Of a stretch of DNA of 64,000 nucleotides, positions 34,989-41,762 are shown in pieces (positions within the stretch are counted from its first letter, which is position 1; each line of letters starts with the position of its first letter). The translations under genes and the position numbers were made by a program. The DNA is from Seleniivibrio woodruffii (GTDB lineage Bacteria > Chrysiogenota > Deferribacteres > Deferribacterales > Geovibrionaceae). The stretch spans positions 372,001 through 436,000 of the forward strand of contig NZ_JAJUIS010000001.1 of the NCBI RefSeq assembly GCF_029267515.1. Reading direction: 5' to 3'. The notes below the pieces were generated by a model that searched no databases, had not been told where the DNA came from, and saw nothing but the letters and a program-made list of their open reading frames with translations.

Positions 34989-36119
34989 TTATTTCTTTTT
35001 CAGAACGGCGGCAAAAAAACCGTCCGCATCGCTTTTGTAGGGCAGCGAGACGAAATAACCTTCGTCAAGAAACTGCTCTGCACAAACTGGTTTAACAATT
35101 TTAAACTCCGGATGCTCTTTCAGAAAGCACTCGACAACGTCTGTTGTCTCTTCTGGTTCCAGCGAGCAGACCGAATAGATTATTGTACTGCCTTTTCCTG
35201 TAAATTTCACTGCTTTTTCAAGCATTTCTTTTTGTCTTCGTGAACAATCGTCAATATCCGTTGTTGTGCGAAGCCAGCGCACTTCGGGGTGTCGTTTTAT
35301 GGTGCCCAGAGCGGTGCAGGGTGCATCCAGCAGAACAAGGTCAAACTCCGCTTCCGTATCAAGCTCCAGAATATCCGCACAGATGCAGTCTACGTTGGCA
35401 TACTGCACCATTGAGGCTTTAAGCTGTTCGTATCTTTTTTTATTTTTTTCAACTGCAAACACGCGGGATTGGGGGTAGGTCTGCGAAAGAACGAACGTTT
35501 TACCGCCGGGTGCCGCACAGCAGTCCAGAATGGAGAGCGGGTCTGCGTCTCCGGCAAGGCGTGCCACGCTGAATGACGCGAGGTCCATAATGTGTCCTTC
35601 GGATTCGCCTTCGGTTTTTTCGATGGTCATGGAGGCGGGATCGACGCTGTAAAACGACGGCTTGGTGTTCAAATCCGCCAGAAAAGCGTCAAGTTCCGCC
35701 CCCAGACGTTTTTCCCATCTTTTAACGAACCAGTCAGGGAAATCCTGACGGATGGAGTAATCTTTCATCAGCGTTTCTTTCTGCCTTGCCAGATTTCGCA
35801 GCACTGCGTTGACAAAGCTGCGTTTCTGTTTCGGCACGAGGGAGACGCTTTCGTTCACGGCGGCGTATTCGGGTATGTCGTCCATGAACATTATCTGACA
35901 GGCGCCAAGAGCCAGTGCGGCGCGAATCTCGGCTTCCGGCGGGCGGGAATAGAGCTTGCCCAGTGCCTTTTCTATGAAGCCGAGATGACGGAACGTTTCG
36001 AAATATATTTTGCGATACAGTCTTTTTTCACTGGAATCCTGAAAATAGTCCTCTTTCAGACTGCCAAGATAATAGGATTTCAGGATGTCGTAAAGTCTGT
36101 AACGGAACCTGTCCGCCAT
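34989..36119 (-). CDS. rsmB: 16S rRNA (cytosine-5) methyltransferase RsmB-like
   Basis: The 376 residues consist of a NusB-like RNA-binding N terminus (about 1-130) and a SAM methyltransferase domain with LDCCAAPGGKT (about 229-239), DAPCTALGT (catalytic-type cysteine) and the second cysteine in SVCSLEPEE. RsmB methylates C967 of 16S rRNA. The protein is shorter than E. coli RsmB (429 residues), mostly at the N terminus and linker. It overlaps htpX by one base. The gene order fmt/rsmB close together is common in bacteria. Confidence 0.9.
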   Translation of the reverse strand: MADRFRYRLYDILKSYYLGSLKEDYFQDSSEKRLYRKIYFETFRHLGFIEKALGKLYSRPPEAEIRAALALGACQIMFMDDIPEYAAVNESVSLVPKQKRSFVNAVLRNLARQKETLMKDYSIRQDFPDWFVKRWEKRLGAELDAFLADLNTKPSFYSVDPASMTIEKTEGESEGHIMDLASFSVARLAGDADPLSILDCCAAPGGKTFVLSQTYPQSRVFAVEKNKKRYEQLKASMVQYANVDCICADILELDTEAEFDLVLLDAPCTALGTIKRHPEVRWLRTTTDIDDCSRRQKEMLEKAVKFTGKGSTIIYSVCSLEPEETTDVVECFLKEHPEFKIVKPVCAEQFLDEGYFVSLPYKSDADGFFAAVLKKK

Positions 36120-36985
36120 TAACGCATTCCCCTTGCCTGTTCGCGGAGTCTTTTAACGCGCTCCTCAACAGGCGGGTGGGTGGAGAAAAGGTTAAGCATA
36201 CCGCTTGCGGAGAAGGGGTTCATTATCATCATGTGAGCTGTTGCGGGTTTTGCCTCCTCCATGGGGTGATATGCCACGCCCTTGGATATTTTTTCCAGCG
36301 CGGATGCCAGCGAAAGCGGTCTTCCGCAGAGGCGCCCTCCCTCTTCGTCGGCTCTGTATTCCCTTGAGCGGGATATCGCCATCTGAATAAGGGTTGCCGC
36401 CAGAGGTGCGAGTATGGATACGACTATCATGCCCACCATGCCGAGCGGGTTGTTGTTTCCCTCTTCATCGTTGCTGTGTCCGCCGCCGAAGATGGCAGCC
36501 CAGCGTGCCATGTCGGCAAGCATCATGATGGCTCCCGCCATGGTTGCCGCAACGGTTCCTATGAGGATGTCGCGTCCGTTTATATGTGCAAGCTCGTGGG
36601 CGAGAACGCCTTCAAGCTCGTCTTCGGAGAGTATTCCCATTATTGCTGTGGTGACAGCCACTACCGCGTGCTGGGGGTTTCTGCCGGTTGCGAACGCGTT
36701 GGGTGTTGCGCTCTGCATAACGCAGACCTTAGGCATGGGTATATTTGCTCTTGTGGCGAGGTTTCGCACAAGACGGTGCAGCGCGGGGTATTCCGCCTCT
36801 GTAACCTCTTTGGCTCCGTACATTTTAAGCACGATGGAACTGCTGAACCAGTATGAGAAGATGTTCATTGCAAAAGCGATACCGAATGCGATGTACATTC
36901 CGTTCCTGCCGCCGATGAGTCCTCCCACAAACACGAAGAAGACCATCAGCACAGTCATGAGCAGAACAGTCTTTAAGGTGTTCAT
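36119..36985 (-). CDS. htpX: Membrane zinc metalloprotease HtpX
   Basis: The 288-residue M48 protease has two N-terminal membrane helices (about 8-28 and 33-53), the zinc motif HELAH (about 129-133) with the third ligand glutamate in [12 protein letters not shown], and two further hydrophobic segments. It degrades damaged inner-membrane proteins together with FtsH. It overlaps the DUF116 stop by 4 bp and the rsmB start by one base. Length and motifs are standard. Confidence 0.96.
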
Positions 36986-37743
36986 ATTGCCTCCTTGATA
37001 TTATATATATTATTTATTTCATCCTCTATCATGCGGGTGTCTATGCGGGTGCTGACACATTCTCCGTTTGGTCTCCTGTTGCAGAAGCCGATCACGGGAA
37101 GGGGATATGTGTCCTGAATACCGCTTAAAAGATCCCGCTCGCACGCCACAGCCAGAATCAGATCGGGGCGTGTTTCCTTAACGATTTTTCTTGCCACGGT
37201 GCCCCCTGTGGCAATGTTTATAGAAATATTATGCCTGTCGGCTATCTTAACAAGTTCTTTTACATCGCAGCGTCCGCAGCCTGTGCATTTTGTGATGTCC
37301 TTTGTCAGTTTCAGTTCGCATCCTTCAAGCTGTATGCAGTGTGGCAGCAGGATGAGCAGCTTATCCGGTTTTTTCCGTTTTATGATGCCGCGAACCATGT
37401 CGTTGTTTATGTTAACGAACGCACGCACCAGCATGTCTCTGTCGATATGCGCGTGTTTTGCGACCCTGAGCATGAAAGGCAGCGTAAGCCTTGTCGCCAC
37501 TCTTCGGGGACCCTTCACCATGTTCAGGTCTCTGCCTGTCAGCGCTGTATATGCGAAAATCAGGGTGAAAACTGTCACTGATAATGAGAAGATGACGAAC
37601 AGCGCAGTGATTATCTCCGCCGCCAGCGGTGAAACAGTAGCGGCGCCAAGCATCATCAGGAACCAGACCACCAGTCCGGCGCCGAATATCACACATCCGC
37701 AGAGGAAGAACAGCGCCATGAATATGGCTCTGTCTTTGGACAT
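36982..37743 (-). CDS. DUF116 membrane-anchored cysteine-rich protein
   Basis: A 253-residue protein with two membrane helices at the N terminus (about 5-30 and 40-65) and a cytoplasmic DUF116 domain. The domain has [23 protein letters not shown] (C-x2-C-x2-C), [13 protein letters not shown] and [11 protein letters not shown], which suggests metal or Fe-S binding. The function of the family is not known. It sits between fmt and htpX, a recurring neighbourhood for DUF116 in several phyla. The ATG at 37741-37743, four bases after the fmt stop, is preferred over a TTG inside fmt. Confidence 0.88.
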
Positions 37744-37747
37744 CCGT

Positions 37748-38674
37748 TTATTCAAATTTTTCCCCGCCCGCCAGCTTTGCTCCGGCAAGAAAACTCACGG
37801 CAGGCATCCTTTTTTTGCCTTCCGGCTGAAGCTCGGTTATCATCAGCGCGTCTTTTGCACATCTGACACAGAAGCTCTTCTTAGTGACATCGAATATTGT
37901 GCCGGGTTCAGTGTTATTTTCTATAGTGACAATTTCCGCAGCAAAAAGTTTAAACATTTTGCCGTCGAGGAAGGTGTAGGCGGCAGGCCACGGCACAAAA
38001 CCGCGTATCATGCACTCTATCTCTTTTGCGGATTTTTCCGCCCATTTTATGTGCCCGTCCTCTTTTTTCATCATAGGGGCATAGGTCATATCCGCATCGT
38101 TCTGTTTAACGGGAGTGATGCTTTCGAACTCCGTCAAAGTTTTGATAAGGAGTTTCGCACCTGTTTCAGAGAGTTCCTCGGCTATCATCACAGCGTCTTT
38201 TCTGCCTATGGGTGTCTTTTCAACCAGCAGAATGTCGCCTGTGTCCAGTCCCGCGTCCATAAGCATAGTGGCGACTCCGGTCTCCTCTTCGCCGTTTATA
38301 ACAGCCCAGTTCACGGGTGCCGCTCCTCTGTATTTGGGGAGTAAAGAGAAATGTACGTTTACAGGCGCTTTCTCAGGCACATCAAGAACAGCCTGCGGGA
38401 GTATCTTTCCGTATGCGGCGACAACGATGAAATCCGGCGCGATGCTTTTCAGTTTTTCAAGCACCTCTTCGTTGTTTTTCAGGCTTTTTGGCTGGATAAC
38501 TTCTATGCCGACGGACTCAGCATATTCTTTAACAGGCGGGGACTGCATCTGGTTTCCCCTGCCTTTCGGCTTGTCTGTCTGTGTTATGACCAGACAAACC
38601 TCTATGTTGTTTTCCACCAGTGCTTTAAGTGTCGGCACAGCCATTTCCGGCGTACCCATGAATACGGTTCGCAT
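37748..38674 (-). CDS. fmt: Methionyl-tRNA formyltransferase
   Basis: A 308-residue enzyme that formylates initiator Met-tRNA using 10-formyl-THF. MRTVFMGTPEMAVPTL is the start, the catalytic Asn/His/Asp set is in NVHFSLLPKYRGAAP and DAGLDTGDI, and the C-terminal tRNA-binding domain is at about 205-305. The ATG at 38672-38674 has GGAG six bases upstream; a GTG nine codons earlier is unlikely. No def gene is adjacent. It heads the fmt-DUF116-htpX-rsmB-ligase operon. Confidence 0.95.
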   Translation of the reverse strand: MRTVFMGTPEMAVPTLKALVENNIEVCLVITQTDKPKGRGNQMQSPPVKEYAESVGIEVIQPKSLKNNEEVLEKLKSIAPDFIVVAAYGKILPQAVLDVPEKAPVNVHFSLLPKYRGAAPVNWAVINGEEETGVATMLMDAGLDTGDILLVEKTPIGRKDAVMIAEELSETGAKLLIKTLTEFESITPVKQNDADMTYAPMMKKEDGHIKWAEKSAKEIECMIRGFVPWPAAYTFLDGKMFKLFAAEIVTIENNTEPGTIFDVTKKSFCVRCAKDALMITELQPEGKKRMPAVSFLAGAKLAGGEKFE

Positions 38675-38725
38675 AACTACTCCATGTACCTTAGTATGCA
38701 CAGTTTATATTATAGCGGGATAAAA

Positions 38726-39631
38726 TCAAGGCGTTTGAACAGATTTCAGCGTTTCTTCGTAAACGGAAAGATTATTTCCGCCGATTGATACCGCTTTTTC
38801 CGCGGCATACAGTGCGAGCTTTTTAAGTCCCGTTTCGTTGAGAACGTGGGCAAGATTGTTCCAGCCGTCGCCGTCGTCAGGATATTTTTCAGTAATTGAG
38901 CGGAATATATCCATTGATTCGGTTTTTTTGCCGGCGGCATAAAGTGCGTTCGCATATGCAAACATCACTGGTTTGCTGTCGAACTCATCATAGGCGTTTT
39001 TAAGTGTTTCTATCGCTCCGTCGGCGTCGGTGAGAGAATATGCGAACGCTGCATCAGCAAGTTTCACAGGATCAGCATCGTTCAGTATCTCGCCGGGACG
39101 AAGGAGTATGAATCCCCAGTAGCCTCCCCTTGCCCAGACCTTGTCGAAGGTTGCAGTTCTGAATTTTTCGTTGGGGGTCACCCCTGAATGGAGAAGAAGG
39201 TATCCGTCGCCTATGCCTGTGACAACTGCGTAGTGCCACACGGGATAGAAATCCAGTCCCATGTTCATGAACACAAGGACGGGCTTGTCTTCCCGCAGTG
39301 AAGAGTAAAGGTCAGCGGGAGAAGTTACCGGATACGGTATGCGTCCGCTCCTGCGTGCTCCGGTGAGCATATCCTCTTTGAAAGATCCTTTTTTGGATGG
39401 GGTGAAGACCTTTTTCGCAAGTTCGTCGGGGTCAGCCTTAATACCGCTCTGTTCAAGCATCATGGCGAGAGATGACGGACCGCAGTAATAGTCTTTCTGG
39501 GCGTAAAAAGGGACGGACAGCGCTATATCCTGCTGTTTTGATATCACGCTGTCCCATCTTGATGAAACCTTTGCCGCGCACCCTGTCATGATCAGAAACA
39601 GACAAAGGGGCAGTAAAAGCTGTTTTATCAT
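38726..39631 (-). CDS. PA2778-type C39-like cysteine peptidase lipoprotein with TPR
   Basis: The 301 residues have a lipoprotein signal (LIMTGCAAK, Cys18, Ala at +2 pointing to the outer membrane), a C39-like papain fold with Cys50 in YYCGPSSLAMML and His133 in VWHYAVVTGI, and a C-terminal TPR region (about 200-290, with GWNNLAHVLNETG). It matches the PA2778 family, which is normally linked to PA2779 proteins, and two of those lie directly upstream in the operon. It overlaps the nearer one by 4 bp. C39 enzymes cleave after double-glycine motifs, and both partners carry glycine-rich PAG motifs before a membrane helix. The substrate role is an inference. Confidence 0.88.
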   Translation of the reverse strand: MIKQLLLPLCLFLIMTGCAAKVSSRWDSVISKQQDIALSVPFYAQKDYYCGPSSLAMMLEQSGIKADPDELAKKVFTPSKKGSFKEDMLTGARRSGRIPYPVTSPADLYSSLREDKPVLVFMNMGLDFYPVWHYAVVTGIGDGYLLLHSGVTPNEKFRTATFDKVWARGGYWGFILLRPGEILNDADPVKLADAAFAYSLTDADGAIETLKNAYDEFDSKPVMFAYANALYAAGKKTESMDIFRSITEKYPDDGDGWNNLAHVLNETGLKKLALYAAEKAVSIGGNNLSVYEETLKSVQTP

Positions 39632-40041
39632 CTTACCGCTTTGGTGAACTTGAACACCTTCGTAAAGCCGAGTATGTCGGTTATCAGAAGCACAATAAAC
39701 ACGAACAGAGCCGCGCCTACAACAAGTCCGAGACCGTCGCCGCCCGCGGGAGCGTTCTCCATGCTGTCTGCAAAGGCTATCGCTTCACTGTCGGAAAGGG
39801 ACTGCGCCCTTTTGACTGCTTCGTCAGGTGAAATGCCCATGGATGTAAGTGTGTTCTGTACGTCCTCGCGGGCGAGAAAAGCGTTTATCTGTGTCTTCGC
39901 CTGCTCCGCTCTTGCGGAGTCGATGACCGTCTGTGTGCCTATCATTGCCGCCTGTGCATTGTGAACAGGACCTGCGAGGAACATAAGGCTGAATATCAGC
40001 AGAAGTCCGATGGTTCTGCTCTGTTTCCTTAACATATTCAT
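39628..40041 (-). CDS. PA2779-family small membrane protein
   Basis: The 137 residues comprise a signal peptide (about 1-31, ending HNAQAA), a helical domain (33-95: FLAREDVQNTLTSMGISPDE, ALSDSEAI-like), the motif NAPAGGDGLG (96-105), a single membrane helix (about 106-124) and a basic tail (FTKVFKFTKAVR). The motif-helix-basic order resembles C-terminal sorting signals. The ATG at 40039-40041, with GGAG upstream, is chosen over an ATG that lies within that site. It is paired with the cysteine peptidase and with a paralogue 63 bp upstream. The function of the family is unknown. Confidence 0.85.
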   Translation of the reverse strand: MNMLRKQSRTIGLLLIFSLMFLAGPVHNAQAAMIGTQTVIDSARAEQAKTQINAFLAREDVQNTLTSMGISPDEAVKRAQSLSDSEAIAFADSMENAPAGGDGLGLVVGAALFVFIVLLITDILGFTKVFKFTKAVR

Positions 40042-40104
40042 AGGTCTCTCCTTCATATTGATGAATATATTATAGGAGTTATCGGAAACAATTGAAGTGA
40101 ATAT

Positions 40105-40482
40105 TCACGACAGTATTACTTTGGTAAGATCCAGTATCGCAGCGATTATCAGAACCAGAAGCCCCGCGATGACGGTTATGAATCCTCCCGCACCGGCAGG
40201 CGCATTATCGATATTCTGCGCCGCAGCAATGGCTTCGCTGTCTGAAAGAGCTTTTATTCTGCCAGACGCTTCTTCAGGATTAACACCCATGCCGATGAGG
40301 GCGTTTTTAACATCCTCTCTCGCCATGAACGTATTTACGGTTTGTCTCGCTGTCTGTGCGGCTGTGTCAATGTTTTCCGTATGATAGGTTATCATCGCTG
40401 CACGGGCGGAACCGGACATGAACATGATAAAAAAAACAAGAACAAGACTCGTGTACTGTCTGAAATATCCGGCAGATATCAT
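40105..40482 (-). CDS. PA2779-family small membrane protein (paralogue)
   Basis: A 125-residue paralogue of the next gene: signal peptide (about 1-29), the shared helical block TFMAREDVKNALIGMGVNPE and ALSDSEAIAAAQNIDNAPAG (about 51-97), a glycine-rich motif PAGAGG (95-100), and a final hydrophobic helix with only a short tail (LDLTKVILS). The basic tail is weaker than in its partner. The start is the ATG behind AAGGAG. It heads the operon, divergent from the EF-hand gene at 40738, and the 255-bp intergenic region should hold promoters for both directions. I could not fix a convincing -35/-10 pair. Confidence 0.82.
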   Translation of the reverse strand: MISAGYFRQYTSLVLVFFIMFMSGSARAAMITYHTENIDTAAQTARQTVNTFMAREDVKNALIGMGVNPEEASGRIKALSDSEAIAAAQNIDNAPAGAGGFITVIAGLLVLIIAAILDLTKVILS

Positions 40483-40737: not shown

Positions 40738-41070
40738 ATGATAATCACACCTGCAAACTCACCCGAATATTATAACACGGTCGGCAGAGCGGATACTTCC
40801 GGTGCACAAAGCAGAAACCAGTCCGCAGCTCAGATACAGACGGCTCCGGCACAGAACACTCAGGCAGCATCAGTCTCGCAGATTCCTGCGTATAAATCTT
40901 CTGTGAGCGCGGAAACTATGGCGAAATTTAATGCTTATGACAGCAACGGCGACGGCGTTATGAGCGTGTCGGAGTTTTCTTCATATACACCCGCCTCCGG
41001 CTGCTGCTGTATGCCTTCTGCCCCAGCAGGGTATATGCCTTACGGAAATTATTATAATGCTTATGCGTAA
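40738..41070 (+). CDS. Small EF-hand protein
   Basis: A 110-residue protein with a disordered Gln/Ala/Ser-rich N terminus (1-50), one canonical calcium loop DSNGDGVMSVSEF (about 68-80) and a Cys-Met-Pro-Gly-Tyr-rich tail (CCCMPSAPAGYMPYG). There is no signal peptide; the N terminus is of the unstructured kind seen in substrates of flagellar or other type III exporters. It has a strong ribosome binding site (GGAGGTAACTC). It is divergent from the PA2779/peptidase operon and similar in plan to the EF-hand protein at 41358. The role is unknown; calcium binding is likely from the loop. Confidence 0.85.
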   Translation: MIITPANSPEYYNTVGRADTSGAQSRNQSAAQIQTAPAQNTQAASVSQIPAYKSSVSAETMAKFNAYDSNGDGVMSVSEFSSYTPASGCCCMPSAPAGYMPYGNYYNAYA

Positions 41071-41357: not shown

Positions 41358-41762
41358 ATGAGCATCTCTACGAACTATTCCGTTTCATATTCCGAACTGA
41401 CAGCGGGCACCATGAGCATAAAAGGTCAGGGGCAGACCGCACAGAAGCAGAACAACGAAGACACTTCGGTTAAGAAAACTGATATGGATACGGTTTCCAT
41501 CTCAACATCGTCCTATAAGATAGGAAATAACAGTGTCAGCCAGTCTGAATTTGAAAAATACGATTCAAACGGAGACGGACAGATAAGTCAGGACGAACTG
41601 GCGGCATACGAAGCCGACCAGCAGGCGGAAACAGAAGAGACGGAGGAAACGGACGAGACGGCAGCGGCTTCGTCGTCCGCGATAGAGAAACTCAAAATAT
41701 CAGGAACAAGTACGGAGGAGGCGCTTCTTCAGGGGCTTTCTTCCGTTGATATGTACGCATAA
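41358..41762 (+). CDS. Small EF-hand protein (second copy type)
   Basis: A 134-residue protein with a Ser/Thr-rich N terminus (MSISTNYSVSYSEL), the phrase DTVSISTSSYKI (about 44-55), one calcium loop DSNGDGQISQDEL (about 70-82), a very acidic stretch (TEETEETDE) and a C-terminal helix. DxVxIS phrases occur in flagellum-associated proteins. The ribosome binding site AAGGAGG is strong. About 40 bases upstream, TATATTTT (41295-41302) and GGCGATAT (41313-41320) resemble a sigma-28 promoter at 6/8 matches each but with a 10-bp spacer. A hairpin follows the stop codon. Confidence 0.85.
   Translation: MSISTNYSVSYSELTAGTMSIKGQGQTAQKQNNEDTSVKKTDMDTVSISTSSYKIGNNSVSQSEFEKYDSNGDGQISQDELAAYEADQQAETEETEETDETAAASSSAIEKLKISGTSTEEALLQGLSSVDMYA

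Follow-up and report, generated by a model that had tools for sequence, protein, structure and literature searches.

Here we report that the PA2778-family cysteine peptidase and the PA2779 family form a tightly linked gene pair in Seleniivibrio woodruffii and many other Gram-negative genomes, and we propose, with a probability of roughly 0.6, that the PA2778-family protein is a dedicated C39-type peptidase cutting PA2779 on the periplasmic side after a conserved PAG[GAS] motif. Both families have already been named, and no published function was found for either in the open-access literature. The pair includes the family prototypes PA2778 and PA2779 of Pseudomonas aeruginosa, and in P. stutzeri, expression of the PA2779 gene ranks within the top 3% under all four conditions tested, as is the case for 39 genes in total (PMC10155442). 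Since a specific, conserved candidate cut site is combined with a single enzyme, the proposed system is directly testable.

A three-gene cassette and its phylogenetic distribution

The cassette lies in a 64,000-nucleotide stretch of DNA, hereafter the window, and comprises the following features.

38726..39631, minus strand: PA2778-family cysteine peptidase lipoprotein, 301 aa (NF033920, 232 bits; Peptidase_C39_2; AlphaFold2 model)
39628..40056, minus strand: PA2779/DUF6627 copy 1, 142 aa as listed (NF033919, 123.5 bits; PF20332, 93.9 bits)
39736..39750, minus strand: proposed cleavage motif PAGG in copy 1, codons P103-A104-G105-G106-D107
40105..40482, minus strand: PA2779/DUF6627 copy 2, 125 aa from the ATG at 40482 (NF033919, 85 bits; PF20332, 55.1 bits)

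The three genes form a compact unit on one strand in the order PA2779 copy 2, copy 1 and peptidase, with the peptidase gene directly downstream of both PA2779 genes and overlapping copy 1 by four bases. In a family-model search, all three proteins score above the curated cut-offs (150 bits for NF033920, 40 bits for NF033919 and 27 bits for PF20332). Copy 1 probably starts at the ATG at 40041 (MNMLRKQ...) rather than at 40056, because a Shine-Dalgarno-like AAGGAG stands six bases upstream of this ATG; the ATG at 40482 is favoured for copy 2, since it is also preceded by a Shine-Dalgarno-like AAGGAG. Downstream of the peptidase gene and closely spaced with it, genes for a methionyl-tRNA formyltransferase-like protein, a DUF116 protein and an M48-like (HtpX-like) protease occupy 36119-38701 of the window on the minus strand, and it is possible that in this genome only they share a transcript with the peptidase. 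Upstream of the cassette, two divergent plus-strand genes (40738-41070 and 41358-41762) each encode a short protein containing one EF-hand-like loop (YDSNGDGVMSVSEF and YDSNGDGQISQDEL), and the Pfam EF-hand matches of both are weak and below the cut-off.

The association between peptidase and PA2779 proposed in the sequence-only reading proved both tight and specific. The two families score over cut-off in an identical set of 7 of the 51 genomes of the phylum, and in a set of 274 genomes drawn from one proteobacterial class PA2779 is found in 66 and PA2778 in 65, all of them within the 66, these counts coming from related genomes and thus not representing independent events. In the one class-set genome with PA2779 but no PA2778, the PA2779 gene is a fragment lying at the edge of a contig. 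The pair is thereby carried by about a quarter of the sampled class, and scattered other carriers include Deferribacteraceae, Desulfobacterales and a Nitrospirota MAG. Of 80 peptidase loci sampled by means of peptidase patterns, 74 show PA2779 immediately upstream of the peptidase gene. The remaining six comprise two loci truncated by the end of a contig and four of the Desulfobacterales type, and each of these six genomes has PA2779 at another place. All 65 stretches of the class set with both genes share one arrangement, PA2779 preceding the peptidase gene on the same strand; the distance is mostly no more than 40 bases and exceeds about 105 bases in a single stretch. Several genomes combine multiple PA2779 copies with a single peptidase, one of them with six PA2779-like matches, as would be the case for one enzyme with several substrates. 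No third gene recurs beside the pair in the 80 loci beyond lineage synteny. A role in defence was also considered and rejected, there being no credible PADLOC match. In one genome (G255:C1:357626-358256), the PA2778 homologue is split between two frames with an internal stop, next to an intact-looking PA2779 gene; this is possibly a pseudogene or an assembly error.

The PAG motif of PA2779 and the C39-like domain of PA2778

Both PA2779 copies have the anatomy previously described for them, namely a Sec signal peptide (AxA signal-peptidase sites AQA-AM and ARA-AM), a helical domain, a PAG[G/A] motif and a single membrane helix. In copy 1, the helical domain covers approximately residues 42-101, the PAGG motif residues 103-106 and the membrane helix approximately residues 109-129, followed by the tail TDILGFTKVFKFTKAVR; copy 2 has a PAGA motif (APAGA) and a shorter membrane tail, AAILDLTKVILS, and the basic tail is limited to copy 1. 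The AlphaFold2 model of PA2779 is of modest confidence (pLDDT 70) and gave no significant match in Foldseek, and therefore we make no claim that the fold is new. In the main PA2779 type, strong conservation extends past the helix into the residues T-D-I-x-G-x-T-x-V-F-P-F. A second, short-tail type, often present as a second copy, ends right after the membrane helix (e.g., LPAGGSVTLLLVIILILLLR); it was seen at loci L216, L200, L190, L217 and L226, in one case (G089/L216) directly upstream of the peptidase gene. Given this type, the PAG motif and the helix are the common denominator of PA2779 proteins. Two PA2779-like proteins from Desulfobacterales (L107:2330-2887 and L108:2-925) possess an extra C-terminal domain beyond the membrane helix, which is consequently not C-terminal in these members, and the extra domain in L108 contains repeated WTGKWKV-like segments. 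An apparent larger protein with a PA2779 domain (a 604-aa match) was rejected as a read-through of masked N bases.

Conservation of the glycine motif next to the helix, on which the original proposal had been staked, is far above chance. Among 161 homologues (Neff 124), Pro, Ala and Gly are each present at 98%, and the residue after PAG is Gly, Ala or Ser at 61, 19 and 15% weighted, respectively, or 95% weighted for the three. At 3.42 bits per column, the motif is the most conserved part of PA2779, compared with 2.9 for residues 126-136, 2.1 for the membrane helix and approximately 2.0 for the helical domain. A GG, GA or GS pair fits 145 of the 158 located motifs, and the exceptions (LNAGG, LTAGA, LPQGA and LPAAG) are partly preserved. 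The substrates of C39 peptidases follow a rule that requires GG, GA or GS, usually with Ala at P3 and with hydrophobic residues at positions -4, -7 and -12 on a short helix (PMC6363468). A cut after PAG[GAS] would give PA2779 Ala at -3, Gly at -2, Gly, Ala or Ser at -1 and Pro at -4, and with the cut after the second small residue its hydrophobic residues would fall at -5, -8, -12 and -15, compared with -4, -7 and -12 in the rule. As judged from these positions, the predicted match to the C39 leader rule is close but offset by one extra residue, the Pro. None of the double-glycine leader models fits PA2779 among the best 25 of 64 weakly matching NCBIfam families.

The peptidase has a signal peptide, a lipobox (MTG before C18) and a C39-like domain at approximately residues 36-181, to which our analysis adds a C-terminal TPR domain (helices at approximately residues 188-299). 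The C39-like fold noted earlier is upheld by a confident AlphaFold2 model (pLDDT 93.1, 77 homologues), whose C39-like domain matches 3erv (Z 16.8) and the PeiR endoisopeptidase (Z 15.9), as well as the double-glycine-cutting peptidases 6mpz, a GG-motif protease with leader (Z 16.1 over 134 residues), and ComA (3k8u; Z 15.8 over 132 residues). Residues C50, H133 and Q45 are each present in 89 of 89 sequences of a sample whose selection was based in part on patterns covering the Gln and WHY positions; for this reason, a second sample chosen by the family model was compared, in which Cys is found in 65/65, His in 64/64 aligned and Gln in 63/65 sequences. The workable catalytic triad that had been considered necessary is only partly there. 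Cys and His, and also Gln, are conserved, whereas the position of the canonical triad Asp (His+16; D117 in LahT and D112 in ComA) is never Asp in either peptidase sample. This position, S149 here, is occupied by Ser or Thr in 89/89 and 62/64 aligned sequences, and a HMMER alignment to 3erv likewise sets Ser opposite the Asp of 3erv. The alteration would leave a Cys-His dyad, in which the nearly invariant Asn123 could orient His133, and catalytic activity of this C39-like protein is predicted to be plausible. The residue at lipobox position +2 is Ala in 67 of 89 sequences and Asp in none. By the Lol rule of E. coli, the lack of Asp here predicts an outer-membrane placement of the peptidase.

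Proposed cleavage of PA2779 and alternative explanations

We infer the following order of events, including the topology, the cleavage and the position of the cut. PA2779 would leave the cytoplasm through Sec and stay anchored in the inner membrane by its C-terminal helix, its helical N-terminal domain facing the periplasm and its basic end the inside of the cell; in this topology, the PAG[G/A/S] motif would lie where the inner membrane meets the periplasm. The C39 domain of PA2778 would then bind the helix just upstream of the motif, much as it would a double-glycine leader, and cut PA2779 after PAG[G/A/S], in copy 1 after G106, to release a helical domain of roughly 65-70 residues and a membrane fragment of roughly 32-36 residues. 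Two findings stand against cleavage: the replacement of the triad Asp by Ser or Thr, and the predicted outer-membrane location of PA2778, which would keep it at a distance from a motif at the inner membrane. Should the Lol rule apply here, PA2778 would need to act before its transport to the outer membrane, or PA2779 would need to leave the inner membrane. As to which product matters, conservation of the membrane fragment allows PA2779 to be read as a precursor, in which the helical domain would be a double-glycine-type leader and the C-terminal membrane peptide of 32-36 residues (the helix plus the TD-I-G-T-VFPF end) the product. We regard this reading as unlikely; if true, it would mean leader-type maturation after Sec export, without an ABC transporter, in many Gram-negative bacteria.

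The conserved PA2779 tail could alternatively reflect co-conservation within a stable envelope complex in which nothing is cut, PA2778 serving as a binding or chaperone module and PAG as a helix break between the domain and the membrane helix. Inactive C39-like domains are carried by some type I secretion ABC transporters, and the missing triad Asp, the attached TPR domain and a membrane helix and TD-I-G-T-VFPF end that are conserved like an interaction surface would all suit such a complex. However, an inactive domain would not need the Cys50, His133 and Gln45 that PA2778 keeps almost without exception, and a mere helix break does not call for the restriction to Gly, Ala or Ser after PAG. We consider this explanation doubtful. 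It is quite improbable that a different protease, either a rhomboid or a periplasmic enzyme, cuts PA2779 close to the membrane while PA2778 acts on something else. Rhomboids are suited by small residues directly in front of a membrane helix, and the genome encodes a rhomboid-like protein that is below the rhombosortase cut-off, but such a scheme leaves unexplained why PA2778 and PA2779 occur together almost without exception and are linked.

The sequence-only reading had likened the tails to the LPXTG, PEP-CTERM and GlyGly-CTERM signals, with PA2778 cutting proteins at a portable tail and transferring them to the surface. The order of motif, helix and basic end agrees with this, and so does the fact that enzyme and target are either both present or both absent. 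The arrangement in consecutive genes agrees as well, being also that of enzyme and target in genomes with a single-target rhombosortase (PMC3237569). The three known tails are, however, portable among unrelated proteins (PMC3237569), whereas a search with the PA2779 tail profile for other such proteins in 20 whole genomes gave significant matches to PA2779 homologues alone, the rest being fragments with E of 0.2-0.9. A general sorting signal was rejected on these grounds. In addition, conservation is higher in the C-terminus past the helix than in the helix itself, unlike in a disposable anchor, the basic cluster is missing from the end of some PA2779 members, and nothing supports transfer or surface attachment. 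Two enzymes of these systems, exosortase and rhombosortase, were likewise searched for: the genome has no match to exosortase (TIGR02602), its best match to rhombosortase (TIGR03902), the rhomboid-like gene mentioned above, scores 28.3 bits against a cut-off of 84, and PA2779 has PAG[G/A/S] in place of an LPXTG motif. A sorting system of this kind is hardly to be expected here. A tail that is found on no other protein, together with the conserved helix and end, instead points to a dedicated enzyme-substrate pair.

Comparison with known systems

The proteins described here are members of NF033920 (PA2778), NF033919 (PA2779) and PF20332 (DUF6627). The two NCBIfam entries have consecutive accessions, which suggests that the pair was noticed by curators, and their names give neither a function nor a cleavage site. 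Full-text searching of open-access papers turned up no functional work on the PA2778/PA2779 pair; the BswR paper deals with PA2780, the divergent neighbour, and not with the pair. Among the sorting systems, GlyGly-CTERM/rhombosortase, PEP-CTERM/exosortase and LPXTG/sortase resemble the pair in the C-terminal order of motif, helix and basic residues and in the joint presence of enzyme and target. They differ in the portability of their tails and in their enzymes, which are intramembrane proteases or sortases, whereas PA2778 is a soluble C39-like lipoprotein.

The double-glycine C39 domains (LahT 6mpz, ComA 3k8u and PCAT1) are similar to PA2778 in fold (Z of about 14-16 on the predicted model) and in the Cys, His and Gln residues, and the proposed substrate shares with theirs the GG, GA or GS pair preceded by an amphipathic helix. 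In contrast to these domains, PA2778 is an exported lipoprotein with a TPR domain that is not fused to an ABC transporter and has Ser or Thr for the triad Asp, while PA2779, the candidate substrate, is a Sec-exported membrane protein with Pro before AGG.

The nearest tested precedent for PA2778, by analogy, appears to be FapD of the Pseudomonas functional amyloid system, a Sec-exported periplasmic C39 peptidase with an essential Cys, which is a stand-alone enzyme whose operon also encodes its presumed substrates (PMC5557850). FapD shows that activity in the periplasm is possible for a C39 peptidase exported by Sec. PA2778 is also Sec-exported and stand-alone, lacks an ABC domain and has substrate-like genes adjacent to it, a likeness of kind. 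FapD works in amyloid secretion with FapF, whereas no conserved neighbour of this sort was seen around PA2778 in the 80 loci. With FapD as the sole tested example found, the proposed cleavage of PA2779 by PA2778, if true, would provide a second case of the barely studied periplasmic C39 peptidases.
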